From positions 1 through 30,396 of IMG/VR virus record IMGVR_UViG_3300021405_000277: a stretch of DNA of 30,396 nucleotides. One strand, written 5' to 3'. Of this stretch, positions 551 to 30,375 are shown piece after piece. Source of the stretch: a virus. A program made the position numbers and the translations under genes. The notes under the pieces are model-generated. The model was not told the DNA's origin. It saw only the letters and a list, made by a program, of their open reading frames with translations, and made no database searches. Every line of letters begins with the position of its first letter. Position 1 is the stretch's first letter.

Positions 551-1693
551 ATGAAAGCACGTTTCGTAACAAATTGCAAAACATGTTCTTCGCCGATTGC
601 AATCGGTGAAGAAATAACTTGGGCTCGGCGTGGCCAGCATAAAGGAACACATCACGCAGCATGTTATCAACCGATGACACAAACAACTAAACCGATCGAG
701 ACTAAAACAGAAGACGCGATCGCAACTAAACCGACAGATACGCAAACCATCGATGGTTTGCCGTTGGACAATTACTCACTAGCGCAAACATTGGCGCGAA
801 CCTTGGAACCCTTTCTTACAATCCAGCGTGATGAACTCACAGCTGAGTTAGAAGAAAAGCTATCGCAGATGATAGAAGAATCGATCGCCAATTTGCCGCT
901 GAAGACTAAAACCGTCTTCATCCAGCAAGGTCGCACGATTGGCGAAGTCACAGAACAACAGCATGAGCACTTTGAACTGGTCTATAAGCTCGTTCAAGCT
1001 AGAATCAACGTATTTCTATGGGGCGAGGCAGGGAGCGGCAAGTCTAGCGCGGCCCGTGAAATTGCTAAGTCTCTGAAACTGCCATTTTACTATCTGGCAT
1101 TGCAGGCGCAAACCCCAGAATCGCGTCTTATGGGTTATATGGATGCGAACGGCAACTATGTGGAAACAGACTTTTACCGCGCATATAAGCATGGCGGTAT
1201 TTTCCTTTTGGATGAGTTAGCACTAGGGAACGGCAACCTTTTAGGTTCATTGAATGGCGCGCTTGCGAACGGTCTCGCATCTTTCCCTTGTGGCCAAGTA
1301 GAACGGCATCCTGACTTTATCTGCATCGCGACGGATAACACTCCCGGACTAGGCGCAACTAAGGCTTATTGCGATCGCAGGGCATTAGATGCTTCTGTTC
1401 GCGATCGCTTTTACCTTGTGCAATGGGACACCGACAAGGCACTGGAACATGCACTTGCCGCGAACCATTTCGAACATGCACCTAAGTGGGTTAATTGGGT
1501 GCAAGCAATTCGCAATGCCGCGCAAACAGTCTCGCCGTCGCTGATCGTAACGCAACGCGCATCGATCGAAGGTTCGCGCATGTTAGCAGCTGGCCTAGAC
1601 GTTGCCAACGTTGCCGAGGGTATGGTCTTTCGCGGATTCGATCGTGTGAGCGTAGGCGCTTTACTTGCACGGCATCCTTTACCAGTATTTTAA
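551..1693 (+). CDS. CobS/MoxR-type AAA+ ATPase with N-terminal zinc-finger-like motif
   Basis: A 380-residue AAA+ ATPase of the MoxR/CobS (dynein-related) type. The N-terminus has a zinc-binding-like pattern (C9, C12, then the HHAAC cluster at 34-38), followed by a low-complexity Thr/Lys linker and a predicted helical stretch at 75-115. The ATPase core shows Walker A GEAGSGKSS (158-166), Walker B GGIFLLDELAL (215-225), a sensor-1 Asn near 263 and an arginine-finger-like RDRF (284-287). The start is fixed by GGAG nine bases upstream. MoxR/CobS ATPases usually remodel a target with a VWA-domain partner, and the next gene, 19 bases downstream, fits that role. Both head the early operon. The substrate is unknown. 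The ATPase call is firm; the MoxR subclass is inferred from the motifs and the neighbour. Confidence 0.88.
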   Translation: MKARFVTNCKTCSSPIAIGEEITWARRGQHKGTHHAACYQPMTQTTKPIETKTEDAIATKPTDTQTIDGLPLDNYSLAQTLARTLEPFLTIQRDELTAELEEKLSQMIEESIANLPLKTKTVFIQQGRTIGEVTEQQHEHFELVYKLVQARINVFLWGEAGSGKSSAAREIAKSLKLPFYYLALQAQTPESRLMGYMDANGNYVETDFYRAYKHGGIFLLDELALGNGNLLGSLNGALANGLASFPCGQVERHPDFICIATDNTPGLGATKAYCDRRALDASVRDRFYLVQWDTDKALEHALAANHFEHAPKWVNWVQAIRNAAQTVSPSLIVTQRASIEGSRMLAAGLDVANVAEGMVFRGFDRVSVGALLARHPLPVF

Positions 1694-1712
1694 CTTTCAG
1701 AGGTTTTACAAA

Positions 1713-2525
1713 ATGGCACGAATTAGACTTACAGAAAAGCGGGTGATACCTCCGTTTGCGTTGGAGTTACCCGCGTTTTATTCGCTCATTCGCAATGTGG
1801 CAACCAGTGGCAAAGATGGTTGGTCGTCACTGAAGGAATCAAGCGACTGGAACGGCAACCTAACATTAGCCCAAGCGATTGATTGCTTGGAACAAGGATG
1901 GTTAGATGCGCCTGCAATTCAGGATGTAACCATCCCGAATGCGCCTAACTTCATCCCCGACATTGATTACAACTATGATGTAACCGGGAACAGCTTAGAT
2001 GTGGCCACATACTTGACAGGCATTCCCGAGCATTGGTTCGCACCCGAGCAAGTGAACCGGCCAAGCGATAACATCGTTAGACTTTCGATCGAAGTTGGCG
2101 GTTCATGGAAAATATCCGCAGATGAGTTGCGAAACCGTGGCCAAGCTGTAATCGCTCTAATCAATTCGCTGGAATTGTCCGGCCTGTCAGTCGAGCTAGT
2201 GCTAATCAGCTCATGGATTAGTCGCGCAGGAATCGTCAATACCATGCTGTTGCCTGTAAAACGCGCGGGTCAGCCGCTGGATATGAACCGCCTGCAATTC
2301 ATGCTTATCAATCCAGCCTTTTACCGTCGCTGCATCTTCGCAGTGCATGAGCACATACAAAACAAGTCCCTGAATGAGTGCAACAGTTTCACGCGCACCT
2401 ACACGCTTCCCGGTTATACCCATATCAATCATGCTGAGGGATTGCACGAAACCCTAGAGGGCGCAATGAACTGGGCGCGATACTTCGGCCTTGGAATCGT
2501 CGCAGCAACTCCCGCGCTGGTATAG
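1713..2525 (+). CDS. VWA-like partner protein of the CobS/MoxR ATPase
   Basis: A 270-residue protein starting at MARIRLTEKR behind an AGAGG ribosome site. Its centre resembles a Rossmann-like VWA fold: a hydrophobic strand VRLSIEVGGSW (about 128-138), a helix with RGQAVIALINSLE (about 145-157), then the strand SVELVLISS. The MIDAS motif DxSxS is absent; the equivalent position reads EVGGS, so metal binding may be lost. Proteins of this shape occur beside CobS-like ATPases in phages and plasmids, and I believe the family is catalogued as DUF7192, though I could not check. By analogy with CobS-CobT and MoxR-VWA pairs it probably couples the ATPase to a target. Position and orientation favour co-expression. 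The fold is inferred and the target is unknown. Confidence 0.6.
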   Translation: MARIRLTEKRVIPPFALELPAFYSLIRNVATSGKDGWSSLKESSDWNGNLTLAQAIDCLEQGWLDAPAIQDVTIPNAPNFIPDIDYNYDVTGNSLDVATYLTGIPEHWFAPEQVNRPSDNIVRLSIEVGGSWKISADELRNRGQAVIALINSLELSGLSVELVLISSWISRAGIVNTMLLPVKRAGQPLDMNRLQFMLINPAFYRRCIFAVHEHIQNKSLNECNSFTRTYTLPGYTHINHAEGLHETLEGAMNWARYFGLGIVAATPALV

Positions 2526-2991: not shown

Positions 2992-3657
2992 ATGGACACG
3001 TTATTTGGAAACACCCAGGCACAGGCGGATTTAAGTTTTCCGCTCACCTTGGCCGAACGGTATCGCCCGTCAACTCTGGATGAGTTTGTCGGCCTGCCGA
3101 AAGCTAAACAGCTGTTTAAAAAGTTCCTCGCACACCCGAAAGAATCTAGCTGGTTATTTGTAGGCGCATCGGGCACCGGCAAAACGTCAATGGCGCTCGC
3201 GCTGGCCAAGCTGATCCCCGCCGAGCTGCACCACATCCCGAGCCAGAACTGCAACCTTGAAACCATAGAGCGGGTGCGGCGAACGTGCCAGTATGTGCCC
3301 GCCGCTGGATTCAAGGCGCATTTAGTTTTAGTTGACGAAGCCGATCGCATGAGCGAAGCCGCGCAGGTTGCGCTCTTGTCTAAGCTCGATGGCACGGACA
3401 AGGCCCCGAATACCATCTGGATTTTTACCTGCAACGCTACCGATCGATTCGAGCCGCGTTTCCTCTCGCGTCACTTTCGCGTGGAGTTTTCAACCTATGC
3501 GATCGCCAAAGACACGGCGGCCTTTTTAGAAAAGGTATGGGATGCCGAGGCCCCGGAAGCCGCGACGAAGCCGAATTTCACCCGCCTAGTGAAAGACGCC
3601 AACAATAACATCCGAGAGGCCCTGATGAGCCTAGAAATGGAGCTGATGGTTGCATGA
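2992..3657 (+). CDS. Clamp-loader-like AAA+ ATPase (RFC/DnaX type)
   Basis: A 221-residue AAA+ ATPase resembling the core of RFC small subunits and DnaX. LAERYRPSTLDEFVG (20-34) is the typical clamp-loader opening. Walker A is GASGTGKTS (58-66) and Walker B LVLVDEAD (111-118). Sensor-1 Asn (148) is followed by FEPRFLSRHF, where LSRH (158-161) stands in for the SRC arginine-finger motif. It is shorter than a full clamp-loader subunit and appears to lack the C-terminal collar domain that holds the pentamer, so it may assemble differently or work with host subunits. No sliding clamp or polymerase lies nearby. The start follows the repeated ribosome cassette. ATPase identity is firm; a replication role is inferred. 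Confidence 0.85.
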   Translation: MDTLFGNTQAQADLSFPLTLAERYRPSTLDEFVGLPKAKQLFKKFLAHPKESSWLFVGASGTGKTSMALALAKLIPAELHHIPSQNCNLETIERVRRTCQYVPAAGFKAHLVLVDEADRMSEAAQVALLSKLDGTDKAPNTIWIFTCNATDRFEPRFLSRHFRVEFSTYAIAKDTAAFLEKVWDAEAPEAATKPNFTRLVKDANNNIREALMSLEMELMVA

Positions 3658-3997: not shown

Positions 3998-4011
3998 ACT
4001 TAGGAGATAGA
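3998..4011 (+). repeat. Ribosome-binding cassette, copy 4 (one mismatch)
   Basis: ACTTAGGAGATAGA differs from the other copies at one base and again follows an ACTAAAA tract. The ATG at 4013 follows directly. Confidence 0.7.
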
Positions 4012-4614: not shown

Positions 4615-4703
4615 GCTTGACCGAACGTGTACTGGCTTTTCTAGCTCGCTGGTATTCTGAAAACCCCCACAATTTAAAACCTAAAAAGGAGACCATCAAT
4701 TGA
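4611..4703 (+). CDS. Micro-protein, 30 residues
   Basis: Starts at an ATGA overlap with the ribbon-helix-helix gene and ends in a TTGA overlap with the next small gene. It begins MSLTERVLAFLARWY, an amphipathic helix, and ends in a Lys-rich tail. Its last codons contain AAGGAG, the ribosome site for the next gene, so it may be only a coupling leader peptide. No family recognised. Confidence 0.45.
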   Translation: MSLTERVLAFLARWYSENPHNLKPKKETIN

Positions 4704-4840
4704 TTGTGATTGAACTTATCATCATTGCGTTTTGCATTGCGGTTTGGACGCTGGCCAATGATTCACAGCAAACCACAAGGCATAACGAAGTCAAGCGCCT
4801 ACTAGAACACAGCAATAGGCGTGACCAGAGGCCCCGATGA
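4700..4840 (+). CDS. Small single-span membrane protein, TTG start
   Basis: A 46-residue protein from the TTG at 4700, supported by AAGGAG (4685-4690) nine bases upstream. Residues 2-17 (IVIELIIIAFCIAVWT) form one membrane helix, followed by a basic tail rich in Arg, Gln and His. It overlaps the genes on both sides. Possible roles are membrane anchoring for replication or partition, superinfection exclusion, or a toxin-like peptide; nothing decides between them. Confidence 0.55.
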   Translation: MIVIELIIIAFCIAVWTLANDSQQTTRHNEVKRLLEHSNRRDQRPR

Positions 4841-4917
4841 CAAACACCGCTTGGCTCATCCTGGGTGTGTGTGCTCTGATATTGCACCTTACCCGTAACG
4901 ACGAAAGGGACAAATGA
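4837..4917 (+). CDS. Micro-membrane protein, 26 residues
   Basis: An ATGA-coupled frame coding MTNTAWLILGVCALILHLTR and a short charged tail. One hydrophobic helix fills most of it. It ends in an ATGA overlap with the coiled-coil gene. Position in an unbroken chain of overlaps is the main evidence that it is translated. Confidence 0.45.
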   Translation: MTNTAWLILGVCALILHLTRNDERDK

Positions 4918-5144
4918 ACAACGGCAAAACTATAGACGAACGGTTGCAATTCCTGCTAACTTCCACCGAATCCCTGCACGCAAGCTGCCAGGAACTTCAC
5001 GCGGCAGCTGCCGAACAGCGGCGGCAGTCCGAGGAACAGTCGCAGCAACTTAACAGAGAATCGCGCCGCCTGCATCGATTACATGCGGCCTTGCTCGCGT
5101 CTATCCGCGCCTTTTTGGAAGCGCCCGAAGACCCGGAAACTTAG
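4914..5144 (+). CDS. Small coiled-coil protein
   Basis: A 76-residue, Gln/Glu/Arg-rich protein whose middle (about 20-60) reads as a long coiled coil, with repeated EQRRQSEEQSQQ-like heptads. It has no membrane segment. It is the last gene of the early run and overlaps the 26-residue membrane gene, so the two may act together. A membrane peptide plus a coiled-coil protein recalls spanin-like pairs, but the location in the early operon argues against lysis. Function unknown. Confidence 0.6.
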   Translation: MNNGKTIDERLQFLLTSTESLHASCQELHAAAAEQRRQSEEQSQQLNRESRRLHRLHAALLASIRAFLEAPEDPET

Positions 5145-5173
5145 AAAGGGATCTAGTTTCCTAGACCCCTTTC
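5144..5173 (+). terminator. Hairpin closing the early operon
   Basis: GAAAGGGATCTAG (5144-5156) pairs with CTAGACCCCTTTC (5161-5173) with one mismatch and a four-base loop, right at the stop of the last early gene. No T-tract follows, so it may be a weak terminator or an mRNA-stabilising stem. Confidence 0.4.
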
Positions 5174-5189
5174 GCCCCTAAGCGAGATG

Positions 5190-5283
5190 TCCGGCCCTGT
5201 CCCCTCCCCCGAGGAAAATAGGCCGAACGCAAACAATCTTACCAGACCGGCCAGCTCCCCCAAGTTGGCCCATTTTCTTTTTC
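5190..5283. promoter_or_regulatory. Candidate centromere/operator region upstream of parA
   Basis: This gap carries four GGCC words in about 80 bases, two of them forming an inverted repeat GGCCA (5249-5253) / TGGCC (5266-5270). It ends in a T-rich stretch ahead of the parA promoter. Partition systems of this class usually have ribbon-helix-helix binding repeats just here. The repeats are short, so the call rests mainly on position. Confidence 0.3.
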
Positions 5284-5313
5284 TTGACTTCTAAAATCTC
5301 CAAAACTTATAAT
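5284..5313 (+). promoter_or_regulatory. Strong sigma70-type promoter of the partition operon
   Basis: TTGACT (5284-5289) and a perfect TATAAT (5308-5313) are spaced by 18 bases, with a T-rich tract just upstream. The expected start at 5320-5322 nearly coincides with the parA ATG at 5322, and there is no Shine-Dalgarno sequence, so the transcript would be leaderless or almost so. Confidence 0.75.
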
Positions 5314-5321
5314 CCTCAGAT

Positions 5322-5975
5322 ATGAACGTGATCGCGGTAATTTCGGAAAAGGGCGGCGTGGGTAAAACCACGATCGCCATTGACCTAGCCGTGGCCGCCG
5401 TTCGTAAGCAGCTGGCGGTTGCGGTGCTCGACATCGACCCCCAGGCGACGGCTGCAAACTGGCTCGATCGACGCACCGACAAACAGCCTTGGGTAATCGC
5501 TACGCCAGTGTCCCGCCTGGTGCCCGTGATCGCCAAAGCTAAAGCGGAGGGCGTCGATATAGTCATCATCGACACGCAGGCGCAATTGTCGATGGATTCG
5601 GCGGAAGCGGCGCGGCGGGCTGATCTGGTTTTAATCCCGATCGAACCCCATCTTTTCTCACTCGAAACGGTCGCGAAAGTGGCCGATCTGCTGCGGTATG
5701 CCGGTAATCCGGCATCCGCTTACATCATCAACAAGGCTCCGATTCAAGGCCAAGAGGCCACCGAAGCGGCAGCCTTCATCACCGCGCAGGGTTTGACGCT
5801 TAGCCCTGTCGTATTGCACACCCGCGCCGCCCACCGACACGCTAGCAATGCTGGCCAGGTGGCGGCAGAGTTCGACGAACACTCAAAAGCGGCAGAGGAA
5901 GCCGCGCAGCTCGCAGAGTACGTCTTTCGATTCATCAAGCTAAACGGACGGAGAAAAAACAATGGCAAAGAGTAG
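5322..5975 (+). CDS. parA: ParA-family partition ATPase
   Basis: A 217-residue ParA/Soj-type ATPase. It has the deviant Walker A KGGVGKTT (residues 10-17), the VLDIDPQATAANW segment that follows in this family, Walker B VDIVIIDTQAQ and DLVLIPIEPH. There is no N-terminal DNA-binding domain, which places it with the small type Ib ParA proteins that pair with a ribbon-helix-helix partner rather than ParB. It would move plasmid copies over the nucleoid. The ATG lies at the predicted transcription start and lacks a ribosome site, suggesting leaderless translation. The partner gene overlaps its end by 14 bases. Confidence 0.93.
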   Translation: MNVIAVISEKGGVGKTTIAIDLAVAAVRKQLAVAVLDIDPQATAANWLDRRTDKQPWVIATPVSRLVPVIAKAKAEGVDIVIIDTQAQLSMDSAEAARRADLVLIPIEPHLFSLETVAKVADLLRYAGNPASAYIINKAPIQGQEATEAAAFITAQGLTLSPVVLHTRAAHRHASNAGQVAAEFDEHSKAAEEAAQLAEYVFRFIKLNGRRKNNGKE

Positions 5976-6243
5976 CAATCTGGGGAAAGGTCTTCAGGCC
6001 CTTAAACAAACAGCGGCGGCGAAGAAAACTAAAAAAGTCAAAGCCGAAACCAACGGCACAGGCAACGGCATGAACGGTCCCCACCGTCCTAAGCTCTTGG
6101 GTGCGAATGTCGAGGTTGAAGTTCACCGCGCATTTAAGCAAATCTCGATTGACGACGCTACCAGCATCCAGCGCCTAGTGTGCGAAGCGCTGAACGACTT
6201 CCTAGCCAAGCGCGGCAGCAAGGTACGCACGGCTATAGAATAA
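5962..6243 (+). CDS. Ribbon-helix-helix partition partner (ParG-like)
   Basis: A 93-residue protein with a basic, flexible N-terminus (about 1-45, Lys-rich then Gly/Asn) and a C-terminal ribbon-helix-helix domain. The domain has a strand KLLGANVEVE, then helices VHRAFKQISIDD and SIQRLVCEALNDFLAKRG. ParG-type proteins use the tail to stimulate ParA ATPase and the domain to bind the centromere and repress the operon. GGAG (5950-5953) sits eight bases upstream. The 14-base overlap with parA and the terminator just after it define a two-gene partition cassette. Confidence 0.82.
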   Translation: MAKSSNLGKGLQALKQTAAAKKTKKVKAETNGTGNGMNGPHRPKLLGANVEVEVHRAFKQISIDDATSIQRLVCEALNDFLAKRGSKVRTAIE

Positions 6244-6309: not shown

Positions 6310-6432
6310 TTAGATCTTAGAACGGCGATGCGCCGCGAGCTGGTGAAAGTTCATCCACCGCCAACGATTCCACGGCTTGATATAGTGCGGCGGGCGCTGT
6401 TCACATATCGCGCATACGCACGGAACCCCCAA
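6310..6432 (-). CDS. Possible overlapping micro-gene with zinc-binding pattern
   Basis: A minus-strand frame that overlaps the 3' end of the zinc-finger gene in another frame and runs 91 bases beyond it. From a TTG at 6432 it would give 40 residues: a CAIC pair, a Trp-rich stretch (PWNRWRWMNF) and HQLAAH, that is CxxC then HxxxxH, a finger-like layout. The frame is open further upstream, with an ATG at 6504. No good ribosome site is seen. It could be a real small zinc protein or a chance frame. Confidence 0.35.
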   Translation of the reverse strand: MGVPCVCAICEQRPPHYIKPWNRWRWMNFHQLAAHRRSKI

Positions 6433-7168
6433 GTGATTGCCGTACCTGCGCGGCGTATATAAGCTCTGCGAATCGGGCGGCAAACATCCTTGGAGGTAGG
6501 TCATATTCTGCCGCAAAATTCTTGCAAAATTCTTGGAACCGGCCAAGGGCAACTTGGAGGGTTGCGGGGGCAAAAGCTCCATTTTCGGCGTGTTCGCTGG
6601 CATGGTTATCACCTTCATTGACGCTGACGATCGCTGCGCTATTGGGGGCATTCAGTCTCCTTAGTTTTCTAGCTTGAGCTGCTTCGTGTTTGGCGTGGTG
6701 TGCGCCTTTGACGTGGTGCTTCTGTGCGAGATGGATGGCCAAACCAGCCTTATTAACAGCTCTGAAATCGCAGTTCGGACAGTCGATAGTCCCTCGGATC
6801 TCCTCGCGCCTTCGCAACGCTTCCTTAGACTTCCCCGGAACGTTGTGAGCGGTCCAGAGATGACGGCCTAGCACTTGAGGACGTTTGAACTTTAGATGGC
6901 ATTGGGGACATTCAAACGGCGGGCCTAGCTTCTTCGGCTTCTTTGTCTGATAGCGCATCGGCAGGCCTGCGGCCTCGCGTTGCTGGCGAAGCGCTATCGC
7001 TGTTCCAGATTTGCCTTTGACGTTGTGCTCGGCGCGGAGATGTGAGCCAAGGCCAGTTCGCTTTTTAAACGTTCGCGGGCACTTGGGGCACTTGAAGGGT
7101 TTGGGCGGCGACGAGCTGGCGAGTTCACTCGTCGAGGAAAGCACTAGAGCGGGTGCTGGATCTGGCAT
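6401..7168 (-). CDS. Protein with three C2H2 zinc fingers
   Basis: A 255-residue protein with three canonical Cx2Cx12Hx4H fingers: C27/C30/H43/H48, C87/C90/H103/H108 and C130/C133/H146/H151. Each finger ends in an HNVKGKS-like linker, and basic regions separate them (for example YQTKKPKK). The C-terminal part (about 195-250) looks helical and may mediate dimer or partner binding. Classical C2H2 tandems are typical of eukaryotes, with a few bacterial groups and their viruses as exceptions. It is likely a DNA-binding regulator, transcribed against the partition operon from its own promoter candidate and separate from the late run. A GGAG lies 13 bases upstream of the ATG, further than usual. 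Target unknown. Confidence 0.85.
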   Translation of the reverse strand: MPDPAPALVLSSTSELASSSPPKPFKCPKCPRTFKKRTGLGSHLRAEHNVKGKSGTAIALRQQREAAGLPMRYQTKKPKKLGPPFECPQCHLKFKRPQVLGRHLWTAHNVPGKSKEALRRREEIRGTIDCPNCDFRAVNKAGLAIHLAQKHHVKGAHHAKHEAAQARKLRRLNAPNSAAIVSVNEGDNHASEHAENGAFAPATLQVALGRFQEFCKNFAAEYDLPPRMFAARFAELIYAAQVRQSLGGSVRMRDM

Positions 7169-8040: not shown

Positions 8041-8891
8041 GGCGTGACTCCCACTTGTGCGTTGAACCCGCCGCTTAGCAAGTTGCCGCATGTGCCTGTG
8101 CATATCGCTACAATCTGGATCTTGTCACCCTGATTCACGGCGACAGAATCGGCTACATCCGTACAAGTTGAGCTGCTGTTGCTGAGGGTGCAGGTTATCG
8201 CAGTGGCCACAGCATTCACATAGACATATAGCGCCACCGTGTTCCCTGCGGCGAGTGTTCCCCCCACGTTTGCAATGAAGGTGTGCAGATGGCCAGTCTC
8301 AAGGGCTGGCGCGAACATAAGCGTACTCAACGTGGATACAAGAGCTACCGTTGCGTTGGTTGGCTGGATGGCATATGCCGATCCCGCCGTCATGGTCTGA
8401 TTTGCGTTTGTGGTTTGCCACTGCATGTACCCCACATTTCCGGTCGCCACTTCCGCGAAGATCGCGCCTATTGTGGTCCCCGAACATGTCCCGCTACACG
8501 TCGCCATCACTGTTACAATATCGCCTTGGTTCACGGCGGCGCTGTGCGTGAAGTCGCTGCACGACCCTGGTGTGATTCCTGCCATCACGCAGGTGATCGC
8601 GGTTGCCGTGCTGTTCACCCAGACGGTGAATGTGACGGTATTCCCGGCGATGAGCGTACTGGTGGTGACGGCGAAGTTTTTTAGGGTGCCGGTATTCAGT
8701 GAGGAGTAAACAACGTTGCTCGCCGCTGACGCCACCATTCCGCCGCCGAAGTAGCCAGGGACATAGTAATTCGTGGCCGGAGCCATGCTAGTGCCGGTGA
8801 AATTGGTGGCATGGGTGATTATTCCCTGCGGCCCGGTTTGAGCCATGCAATAAGCGCCGCACAGCAAAACTAAAGCTAAGATCCGTTTCAT
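8037..8891 (-). CDS. Exported protein with two tandem Cys-rich beta domains
   Basis: A 284-residue protein with a Sec signal peptide (MKRILALVLLCGAYCMAQ) and two tandem copies of one domain of about 125 residues. Shared landmarks are AGNTVTFTVWVN / AGNTVALYVYVN, TAITCVM / TAITCTL, SCSDFTHS / TCTDVADS, VNQGDIV / VNQGDKI and CSGTCSG / CTGTCGN. The four Cys per copy probably form disulfides, consistent with export. The downstream gene carries a third copy. It sits after the lysis genes, two bases past the 134-residue exported gene. Possible roles are receptor binding, a virion decoration, or a surface factor of the carrier cell. Confidence 0.75.
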   Translation of the reverse strand: MKRILALVLLCGAYCMAQTGPQGIITHATNFTGTSMAPATNYYVPGYFGGGMVASAASNVVYSSLNTGTLKNFAVTTSTLIAGNTVTFTVWVNSTATAITCVMAGITPGSCSDFTHSAAVNQGDIVTVMATCSGTCSGTTIGAIFAEVATGNVGYMQWQTTNANQTMTAGSAYAIQPTNATVALVSTLSTLMFAPALETGHLHTFIANVGGTLAAGNTVALYVYVNAVATAITCTLSNSSSTCTDVADSVAVNQGDKIQIVAICTGTCGNLLSGGFNAQVGVTP

Positions 8892-8892
8892 A

Positions 8893-9297
8893 TCACTGTT
8901 TCCCGGTGTAATGGAAAATCACCCTGGTTGTGCCGTCGCCCGCCGTGTAGCTGACTAAGTTGATTCTTAGATAGAGCACAGGTTTCGAGACGATATGCTC
9001 CATGTACGCGGTTGTGCAGCTGTTGGTTGCCGGTGAAGTCACGTCCAGCCCATACCATGTGCTGTTATCGGAGCTGCCCTCCACGCGGAACGTGCAAGCG
9101 GTTGGCGCGGTCCCGTTCACGCTGGCGTCGATCGTGTAATTTTGCGGACGGGCTGCGACGTTCGAAAACTGCAAAGGGATAAGCGGCACGGCGGCGGTCA
9201 CCGCTGGAAAGGTGTAGAGCAGGTTATTCGGCGCTTGAACCTGCGCCGCCGCCGTCGCACACACTAAACTAAAAACTAAAAACGCTAGCTTTCTCAT
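8893..9297 (-). CDS. Exported beta-rich protein
   Basis: A 134-residue protein with a clear signal peptide, MRKLAFLVFSLVCATAAAQ. The mature part is Ser/Thr/Asn-rich and beta-like, with FRVEGSSDNSTWYGLDV in the middle, a segment typical of jelly-roll or Ig-like phage domains. AAGGAG sits nine bases upstream of its ATG, inside the end of the lysozyme gene. The signal-peptide hydrophobic core is encoded by a TTTTTAGTTTTTAG run. Function unknown. Confidence 0.7.
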   Translation of the reverse strand: MRKLAFLVFSLVCATAAAQVQAPNNLLYTFPAVTAAVPLIPLQFSNVAARPQNYTIDASVNGTAPTACTFRVEGSSDNSTWYGLDVTSPATNSCTTAYMEHIVSKPVLYLRINLVSYTAGDGTTRVIFHYTGKQ

Positions 9298-30024: not shown

Positions 30025-30375
30025 ATGCTCAAGAAATACATTCTCGATGCGAACGGCAACCCGGTGGTTTGCACCGATCTGATGGCATGGGCGGCGTGGT
30101 ATGAGACGGGGGACCAGCGCAGGCTAGCGTTTGACCAGGTTGGGGAAGTTAAAATCTCGACCGTGTTTTTAGGTTTAGATCACAACTTCGCGATGACCGG
30201 CCCGCCGATCCTCTGGGAAACCATGATCTTTGGCGGGCCATTTGACCGCGAATTATACCGCTACACTACGCGGGATCTGGCGCTGATCGGTCATGCTGAG
30301 GCCCTGCTGATGGTGAAAACTACCATGCGCCACAAACAGCACGTTGAGGGGAAACGCCACAAATGGGAGACTTAG
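30025..30375 (+). CDS. Conserved phage hypothetical protein
   Basis: A 116-residue protein resembling a small family widespread in phages and prophages: a start like KYILDANGNPV, then WAAWYETGDQRR and VKISTVFLGLDHNF, then GPPILWETMIFGG. The family role is unknown. The ATG has no ribosome site, with AT-rich sequence close by, so a short or missing leader is possible. It diverges from the late operon and starts a new plus-strand run at the window edge. Confidence 0.78.
   Translation: MLKKYILDANGNPVVCTDLMAWAAWYETGDQRRLAFDQVGEVKISTVFLGLDHNFAMTGPPILWETMIFGGPFDRELYRYTTRDLALIGHAEALLMVKTTMRHKQHVEGKRHKWET

Follow-up and report, generated by a model that had tools for sequence, protein, structure and literature searches.

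A phage gene pair encoding a MoxR/CobS-type ATPase and a VWA-like DUF7192 protein is a probable NorQ/NorD-like remodeling machine

Analysis of an IMG/VR virus contig of 30,396 bases (hereinafter the window, that is, the whole stretch of DNA) reveals two adjacent genes whose products, a MoxR/CobS-type AAA+ ATPase and a protein of the DUF7192 family, probably constitute a phage-specific AAA+/VWA-like remodeling machine that works like NorQ/NorD. The family and the motifs of the ATPase, the VWA-like fold of its partner, the degenerate MIDAS site, the nearly obligate adjacency of the two genes and the conservation of a finger block in the partner were all computed here.

The first-pass annotation of this DNA had recognized a CobS/MoxR-type ATPase in the first of the two genes, and this assignment holds: both open reading frames are located exactly as given, and the product of the first matches both AAA_5 and PHROG 249. 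The features of the ATPase are as follows.

551-1693, + strand: MoxR/CobS-type AAA+ ATPase of 380 aa, PHROG 249 (AAA_5, 9.5e-15; PHROG 249, 6.8e-49)
575-664, + strand: N-terminal zinc-finger-like motif C9xxC12...H35xxC38, conserved with Tunturi_4
1022-1045, + strand: Walker A (GEAGSGKS), first G and GK invariant in 26 sequences
1133-1174, + strand: probable helix-2 insert, GYMDANGNYVETDF, between Walker A and Walker B (conservation in 26 sequences; analogy with NorQ, PMC13036017)
1202-1222, + strand: Walker B (FLLDELA), from the alignment of 26 sequences
1397-1411, + strand: arginine finger (VRDRF, R286), R invariant in 26
1550-1564, + strand: sensor 2 (TQRAS, R336), R invariant in 26

The match to PHROG 249, a family annotated as "porphyrin biosynthesis", spans residues 66-364 of the ATPase. 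A search of the PDB with the profile of the ATPase family retrieves Midasin, followed by CobS (2.5e-23), CbbQ and NorQ chains, that is, the MoxR-like class, the members of which act with VWA partners; the NCBIfam matches of the ATPase include no CobS model, although that collection may not contain one. All the signature elements of the MoxR class are in place, namely Walker A (residues 158-165), Walker B (D221 and E222), sensor 1 (N263), the arginine finger (R286) and sensor 2 (R336). No variation is seen across 26 aligned ATPases in the glycines and the lysine of Walker A, the D/E of Walker B, the N/T of sensor 1, the arginine finger or the arginine of sensor 2, and the fourth position of Walker A differs in a single case. 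In the Walker B region (1202-1222, + strand), residue 224 of the window ATPase is A, against D in all 25 aligned relatives. Residues 195-208 form a conserved segment rich in glycine and aromatic residues at the place where, from sequence alone, the helix-2 beta-hairpin insert of the MoxR class is expected; by analogy with NorQ, in which this element grips the finger of the partner, GYMDANGNYVETDF is the probable helix-2 insert. The N-terminal zinc-finger-like motif, which had been described as an addition to the ATPase, is kept in Tunturi_4, and motifs of the same kind occur in 9 of the 44 non-redundant ATPase relatives, the window included; judging from this conservation, the CxxC...HxxC motif is real, yet an accessory confined to some branches of the family, and it probably binds zinc.

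The gene immediately downstream encodes a protein of 270 aa with the following features.

1713-2525, + strand: DUF7192 protein, VWA-like adaptor of 270 aa (PF23822, 1.8e-25; PHROG 1909, 2e-25; structure model; PDB matches)
1962-2057, + strand: putative finger block, residues 84-115 (...YDVTGNSLDVATYLTGIPEHW...), from the conservation profile, the block listing and the L068 model
2091-2105, + strand: MIDAS-equivalent site, residues 127-131, EVGGS for DxSxS, at the DxSxS position after strand 1

The window protein scores 90.3 bits against DUF7192 (PF23822), for which the cut-off is 27; this cut-off is passed by all 35 aligned members, among them the window protein, and also by the partners in Listeria, Acinetobacter, Alteromonas and crAss-like phages. 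PHROG 1909 carries no function label. None of the Pfam VWA models matches any of the 35 members at an E value of 0.01, and searches of PDB sequences with the single partner protein and with a profile returned chance matches only. These findings bear on a cobaltochelatase reading, with the ATPase in the role of CobS and its partner in that of CobT, by which the pair would serve the host subunit CobN and raise cobalamin output. The PHROG 249 label and the CobS match of the family profile are compatible with such a function, and cobST clusters, which are widespread in tailed viruses, have been interpreted as helpers of host CobN (PMC8651126). It is nevertheless highly improbable that the present pair plays this part: DUF7192 is not CobT, given that none of the 35 members matches CobT_C either, that the proteins comprise only about 270 aa and that they have no MIDAS. 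The CobT-like partners of phages are large, match VWA or CobT_C models and are paired with more distant ATPases (GMA7, MT835474), and CobN was not found in the window, a contig that seems to be incomplete. Moreover, the pair is present in 236 Staphylococcus phage records. Staphylococcus is not known to make cobalamin or to have CobN.

The relationship between DUF7192 and VWA domains is invisible to sequence comparison and becomes visible by structure. The window partner was modeled by AlphaFold2 from 35 sequences (mean pLDDT 64.5; about 75-90 in the core), and the first PDB match of the model is the NorQ-bound VWA domain of NorD (Foldseek E 4.7e-3; Z 5.0 and 4.9). L068, a relative that shares only about 21% of its residues with the window protein, was modeled by AlphaFold2 from 49 sequences and gave a pLDDT of 86.8 and a pTM of 0.82; the top PDB matches of this model are all NorD VWA chains of NorQ-NorD complexes (Foldseek E 2.8e-4, probability 0.99). 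The structure realignment covered the best 1000 chains of Foldseek, so that some folds are possibly missing from the comparison; among these chains, NorD reaches Z 8.1-9.5 against the L068 model (at the top Z of 9.5, rmsd 5.9 A over 194 residues), followed by the MIDAS domain of Rea1/Midasin (Z 7.1) and a further state of NorD (Z 7.0), ordinary VWA domains such as those of integrin, von Willebrand factor, TFIIH, Ku and others do not exceed Z 5.9, and nearly all the remaining matches are other VWA domains. Among viral structure models, the first matches outside DUF7192 are phage CobT and VWA proteins. Given the TM-scores of about 0.3 to NorD and the large rmsd, the kinship with NorD is remote, and the models indicate a shared fold, not a close relation. 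The first-pass annotation had proposed a VWA-like core for this protein, and both models agree in pointing to one, with the NorD VWA domain as the top solved match: the structure predicted for 1713-2525 came out as a VWA-like alpha/beta fold, the model of the window protein itself agreeing at lower confidence.

The most conserved stretch of the DUF7192 family is the block that precedes strand 1, YDVxGxxVDxGRxxTGEPEC, in which one G and the P are invariant; apart from this block, conservation is concentrated in a few positions after strand 3. In the L068 model, the block is folded into a strand (85-90), a helix (98-102) and another strand (109-114). The alignments of this model with NorD and Rea1 begin at residue 1, 19, 51 or about 56-62, whereas those with most of the ordinary VWA domains begin only at about 117; the extra N-terminal part that is aligned with NorD falls where NorD has the finger by which it reaches into the pore of NorQ (PMC13036017). 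As judged from the model, the DUF7192 block is thus the putative counterpart of this finger. A resemblance between the GR of the finger, present in 32 of the 49 members, and the GRXLL/I motif of NorQD was considered and dropped because GRXLL/I sits in the helix-2 insert of NorQ, not in the finger. The loss of the MIDAS residues that had been read from EVGGS in the window protein applies to the family at large: the first MIDAS position is N in 34 of the 49 members, D in 4 and E in the window, and only one of the 49 shows a DxSxS-like pattern, the site being judged here on the DxSxS residues of a motif that also comprises a T and a D. Taken together, the conservation of the finger block and the degeneracy of the MIDAS mean that the part of the domain expected to face the motor has been kept and that the site by which targets are usually held is degenerate.

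Relatives were found through close pairs and then through a short motif, whereas searches with one window protein or with an alignment of distant sequences were useless; the motif [VL][TDE]GEPE[CA][MWC] alone recovered 41 relatives among 58 matching stretches. The survey of pairing started from contigs identified with the partner alone as the query, 57 distinct viral contigs in total. The ATPase gene immediately precedes that of DUF7192 in 55 of these, in the same orientation and with a median of 49 bases between the two, and the remaining two contigs break off at the DUF7192 gene. The partner is thus paired in every contig that has room for the ATPase; together with the VWA-like fold, this adjacency supports the MoxR-VWA pairing that had been proposed for the two genes. 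The same gene order is found in isolate phages of Staphylococcus, Listeria, Lactobacillus, Mycobacterium, Gordonia, Rhizobium, Sinorhizobium, Acinetobacter, Alteromonas and Tunturiibacter and in one uncultured crAss-like phage, eleven host or phage groups in all, with hosts in Firmicutes, Actinobacteria, Proteobacteria and Acidobacteria. The sequence divergence of the ATPase is correlated with that of DUF7192 (r 0.63, the highest value in 5000 permutations being 0.33), a correlation that may reflect merely the ancestry of the phages. Plasmids, which the first-pass annotation had named alongside phages for a survey of the two genes, yielded just two weak matches to the ATPase. In actinobacterial cellular genomes, the DUF7192 family was detected in 2 of 396, one of them being the genome used as the center. 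Near-absent from plasmids and rare in the sampled cellular genomes, the pair is a feature of phages rather than of plasmids.

The apparent exceptions to the pairing are second, orphan copies of DUF7192 in cluster-L mycobacteriophages that also carry the pair; in these phages, the orphan paralogue is located near the pair, as in L013 (DUF7192 copies at 4629-5477 and 8329-9177). Tandem copies of DUF7192 are present in two environmental contigs (L031, L039). In Mycobacterium phage DirkDirk (MN617841.1, 65031-65243), the tail end of DUF7192 lies under a gene annotated as AAA-ATPase, perhaps a fusion of the ATPase and the adaptor by deletion. The sole cellular relative from the genome scan, a contig of Trebonia kvetii (L108, L112), contains two copies of DUF7192 with the ATPase upstream and is probably a prophage.

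The NorQ/NorD system suggests how such a pair could operate. NorQ is a hexamer, the pore of which is entered by the finger of NorD; a rotation of the VWA domain of NorD by ATP-driven steps has been proposed; no iron is inserted when the finger is deleted, the finger being essential for remodeling; and the MIDAS of NorD is dispensable for binding NorQ and required for the target (PMC9976466, PMC13036017). By analogy, we infer that the PHROG 249 ATPase would assemble as a ring motor, presumably a hexamer, on which DUF7192 would be mounted with its conserved finger inserted in the pore, and that ATP-driven movements of the ring would twist the adaptor along with its cargo. With a MIDAS that has degenerated throughout the family, DUF7192 would be expected to grip its target by a different, metal-independent surface. 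The pair most likely would pull apart or reshape some protein complex during infection. Several findings weigh against this proposal: the best model comes from a relative with only about 21% identity, the model of the window protein is mediocre and the likeness to NorD is remote. Against a NorQ/NorD-like mode of action, in particular, it can be noted that DUF7192 is devoid of a large, separate target-binding domain of the NorD kind and that no constant third gene accompanies the pair.

The third gene was sought in a pooled scan of the neighborhoods of the pair. Where neighbors can be recognized, they often belong to replication (clamp loader, sliding clamp, primase, helicase and ligase), and the likeliest guess for the target is accordingly a protein complex of replication or of the host. 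One option is that the remodeling machine loads, unloads or disassembles a replication or transcription complex of the phage or the host. A clamp-loader-like gene lies near the pair in the window and a sliding clamp gene in Tunturi_4, a helicase and a primase are encoded near the pair in PT11-V19 and cr10_1, and a processivity factor, primase/helicase and thymidine kinase, in addition to ligase, appear in the pooled scan. Because none of the neighbors is constant and replication genes abound in early phage regions anyway, we hold this reading tentatively, as a serious possibility that falls somewhat short of an even chance.

The gene neighborhoods also bear on a role in virion assembly, in which the pair would be a chaperone that aids the assembly or processing of capsid or tail proteins; proposals of this kind exist for the jumbo-phage MoxR-vWA pair (PMC7824862) and the Acidianus two-tailed virus. 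The pair is located among head and tail genes in RHph_X2_24 and P106B, and the annotation of vB_SauM-515A1 lists its ATPase as a structural protein. Most of the other phages examined, however, place the pair outside the structural genes, near replication or small unknown genes; in the window, the capsid genes are on the strand opposite to that of the pair, and the metallopeptidase domain of the jumbo-phage partner is lacking. Such a role seems unlikely. Another option for the target of the remodeling machine is a host defense complex that the pair would dismantle. The presence of the pair in unrelated phages, which would not bind it to one host function, and the propensity of AAA+/VWA machines to work on complexes could be taken to fit counter-defense, but the PADLOC matches of the ATPase are weak, being located in the AAA+ core and the part that precedes it (IetA, 6.7e-7), and PADLOC gives no match for DUF7192. 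Since the pairing is near-universal over very different hosts, a core function is favored over a defense-specific one, and we regard counter-defense as quite unlikely. The roles that the first-pass annotation had suggested for the pair, in host takeover, counter-defense or the start of replication, are candidate functions. The main text of the published kayvirus transcriptomes does not mention the pair.

Within the window, two further elements of the same cluster are pertinent.

532-545, + strand: recurrent leader ACTTTGGAGATAGA with a Shine-Dalgarno core, ahead of the ATPase start (copy count versus chance)
2992-3657, + strand: short clamp-loader-like AAA+ protein in the same cluster, given for context (PHROG 168, clamp loader, 2.8e-26)

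The closest isolate relatives of both the ATPase and DUF7192 are the products of adjacent genes of Tunturiibacter phage Tunturi_4, and the capsid protein of the window is 38% identical to that of Tunturi_3; from these similarities, the host of the virus is probably an acidobacterium. Among the scanned proteins of the window, no terminase, portal or DNA polymerase was recognized, and the contig therefore seems to be incomplete. The description of the ATPase gene as the first of a putative early operon is accordingly valid for the present piece only: 551-1693 is indeed the first open reading frame of a rightward cluster, positions 1-550 containing no plausible gene, but the contig apparently lacks part of the genome and has a further + strand open reading frame at its far right end (30025-30375). 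Promoter-like matches in the window are not above chance (5 found versus 4.1 expected). The leader, in contrast, is present in 4 copies with at most 2 mismatches allowed, versus 0.06 expected; the copies, at 532-545, 2561-2574, 2974-2987 and 3998-4011 (+ strand), precede four genes of the cluster, and one has a single mismatch. The clamp-loader-like protein (2992-3657, + strand) has just 221 residues and apparently is missing the C-terminal part of the usual loaders. A ParA-like ATPase followed by a ribbon-helix-helix protein (5322-6243, + strand) suggests partition as in phage-plasmids, and a protein of 255 residues encoded at 6401-7168 (- strand) contains at least two C2H2 zinc fingers (zf-C2H2, 2.2e-9), which is unusual in a phage.

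Going beyond the single pair, we suggest, with some hesitation and at less than even confidence, that PHROG 249 and DUF7192 represent a distinct, phage-dedicated class of AAA+/VWA systems that has kept the motor-coupling finger and discarded metal binding at the MIDAS, and that serves one shared, so far unnamed step of the infection cycle in phages of Gram-positive, Gram-negative and acidobacterial hosts. If the proposed machine is real, two large phage families, labeled "porphyrin biosynthesis" and "domain of unknown function", are the parts of one machine, which is carried by therapeutically used Staphylococcus phages and by Listeria phages. To label the DUF7192 branch as a vitamin B12 auxiliary metabolic gene would then be an error, one that would lead ecological surveys astray. 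With about 650 residues in two genes, the set would also be a small system for the study of MoxR motors that drive MIDAS-less VWA partners.

The first-pass annotation had held that the role of the pair was not described. This is accurate in that we found no account of DUF7192 itself in the literature searched, but the ATPase belongs to a known phage family, and phage CobS/CobT (PMC8651126) and jumbo-phage MoxR-vWA (PMC7824862) pairs have been published and were known beforehand. Among other known systems, the MIDAS domain of Rea1/Midasin, the next-best fold match after NorD, is like DUF7192 a VWA domain that is coupled to AAA+ and has an inserted loop, but it is fused to a giant eukaryotic AAA+ protein, has a functional MIDAS and acts on pre-60S ribosomes. 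CbbQ/CbbO and RavA/ViaA belong with the window pair to the class of ATPase-VWA remodeling systems but are cellular and have defined cellular targets. The VWA partners of these two systems are much larger than DUF7192. The viral CobS/CobT pairs of tailed phages (PMC8651126), such as that of Gordonia phage GMA7, resemble the window pair in having an AAA+ gene followed by an adjacent VWA gene, and the GMA7 ATPase also matches PHROG 249 (1.8e-22); they differ in the partner, which is not DUF7192 but a protein of about 600 aa that Pfam recognizes by CobT_C, as for GMA7_71, or by VWA models, as for the protein in MT835474, where DxSGS is intact. These pairs also match mostly other PHROGs (5424, 5298). 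The jumbo-phage pair shares with the window pair the phage-encoded MoxR-VWA combination and a proposed chaperone-like role, but its vWA domain is fused to a metallopeptidase, which DUF7192 is not, and virion assembly has been proposed as its function (PMC7824862). The closest parallel is NorQ/NorD, which is involved in the maturation of nitric oxide reductase (PMC9976466, PMC13036017): it likewise combines a MoxR ATPase with a VWA partner, provides the closest solved fold for DUF7192 and has a matching block before strand 1, where the finger of NorD is located, whereas NorD is a protein of 638 aa in which the N-terminal domain stands apart and the MIDAS is intact, and DUF7192, with about 270 aa, has a degenerate MIDAS and neither the large N-terminal domain nor the linker of NorD, the whole window partner comprising 270 aa.
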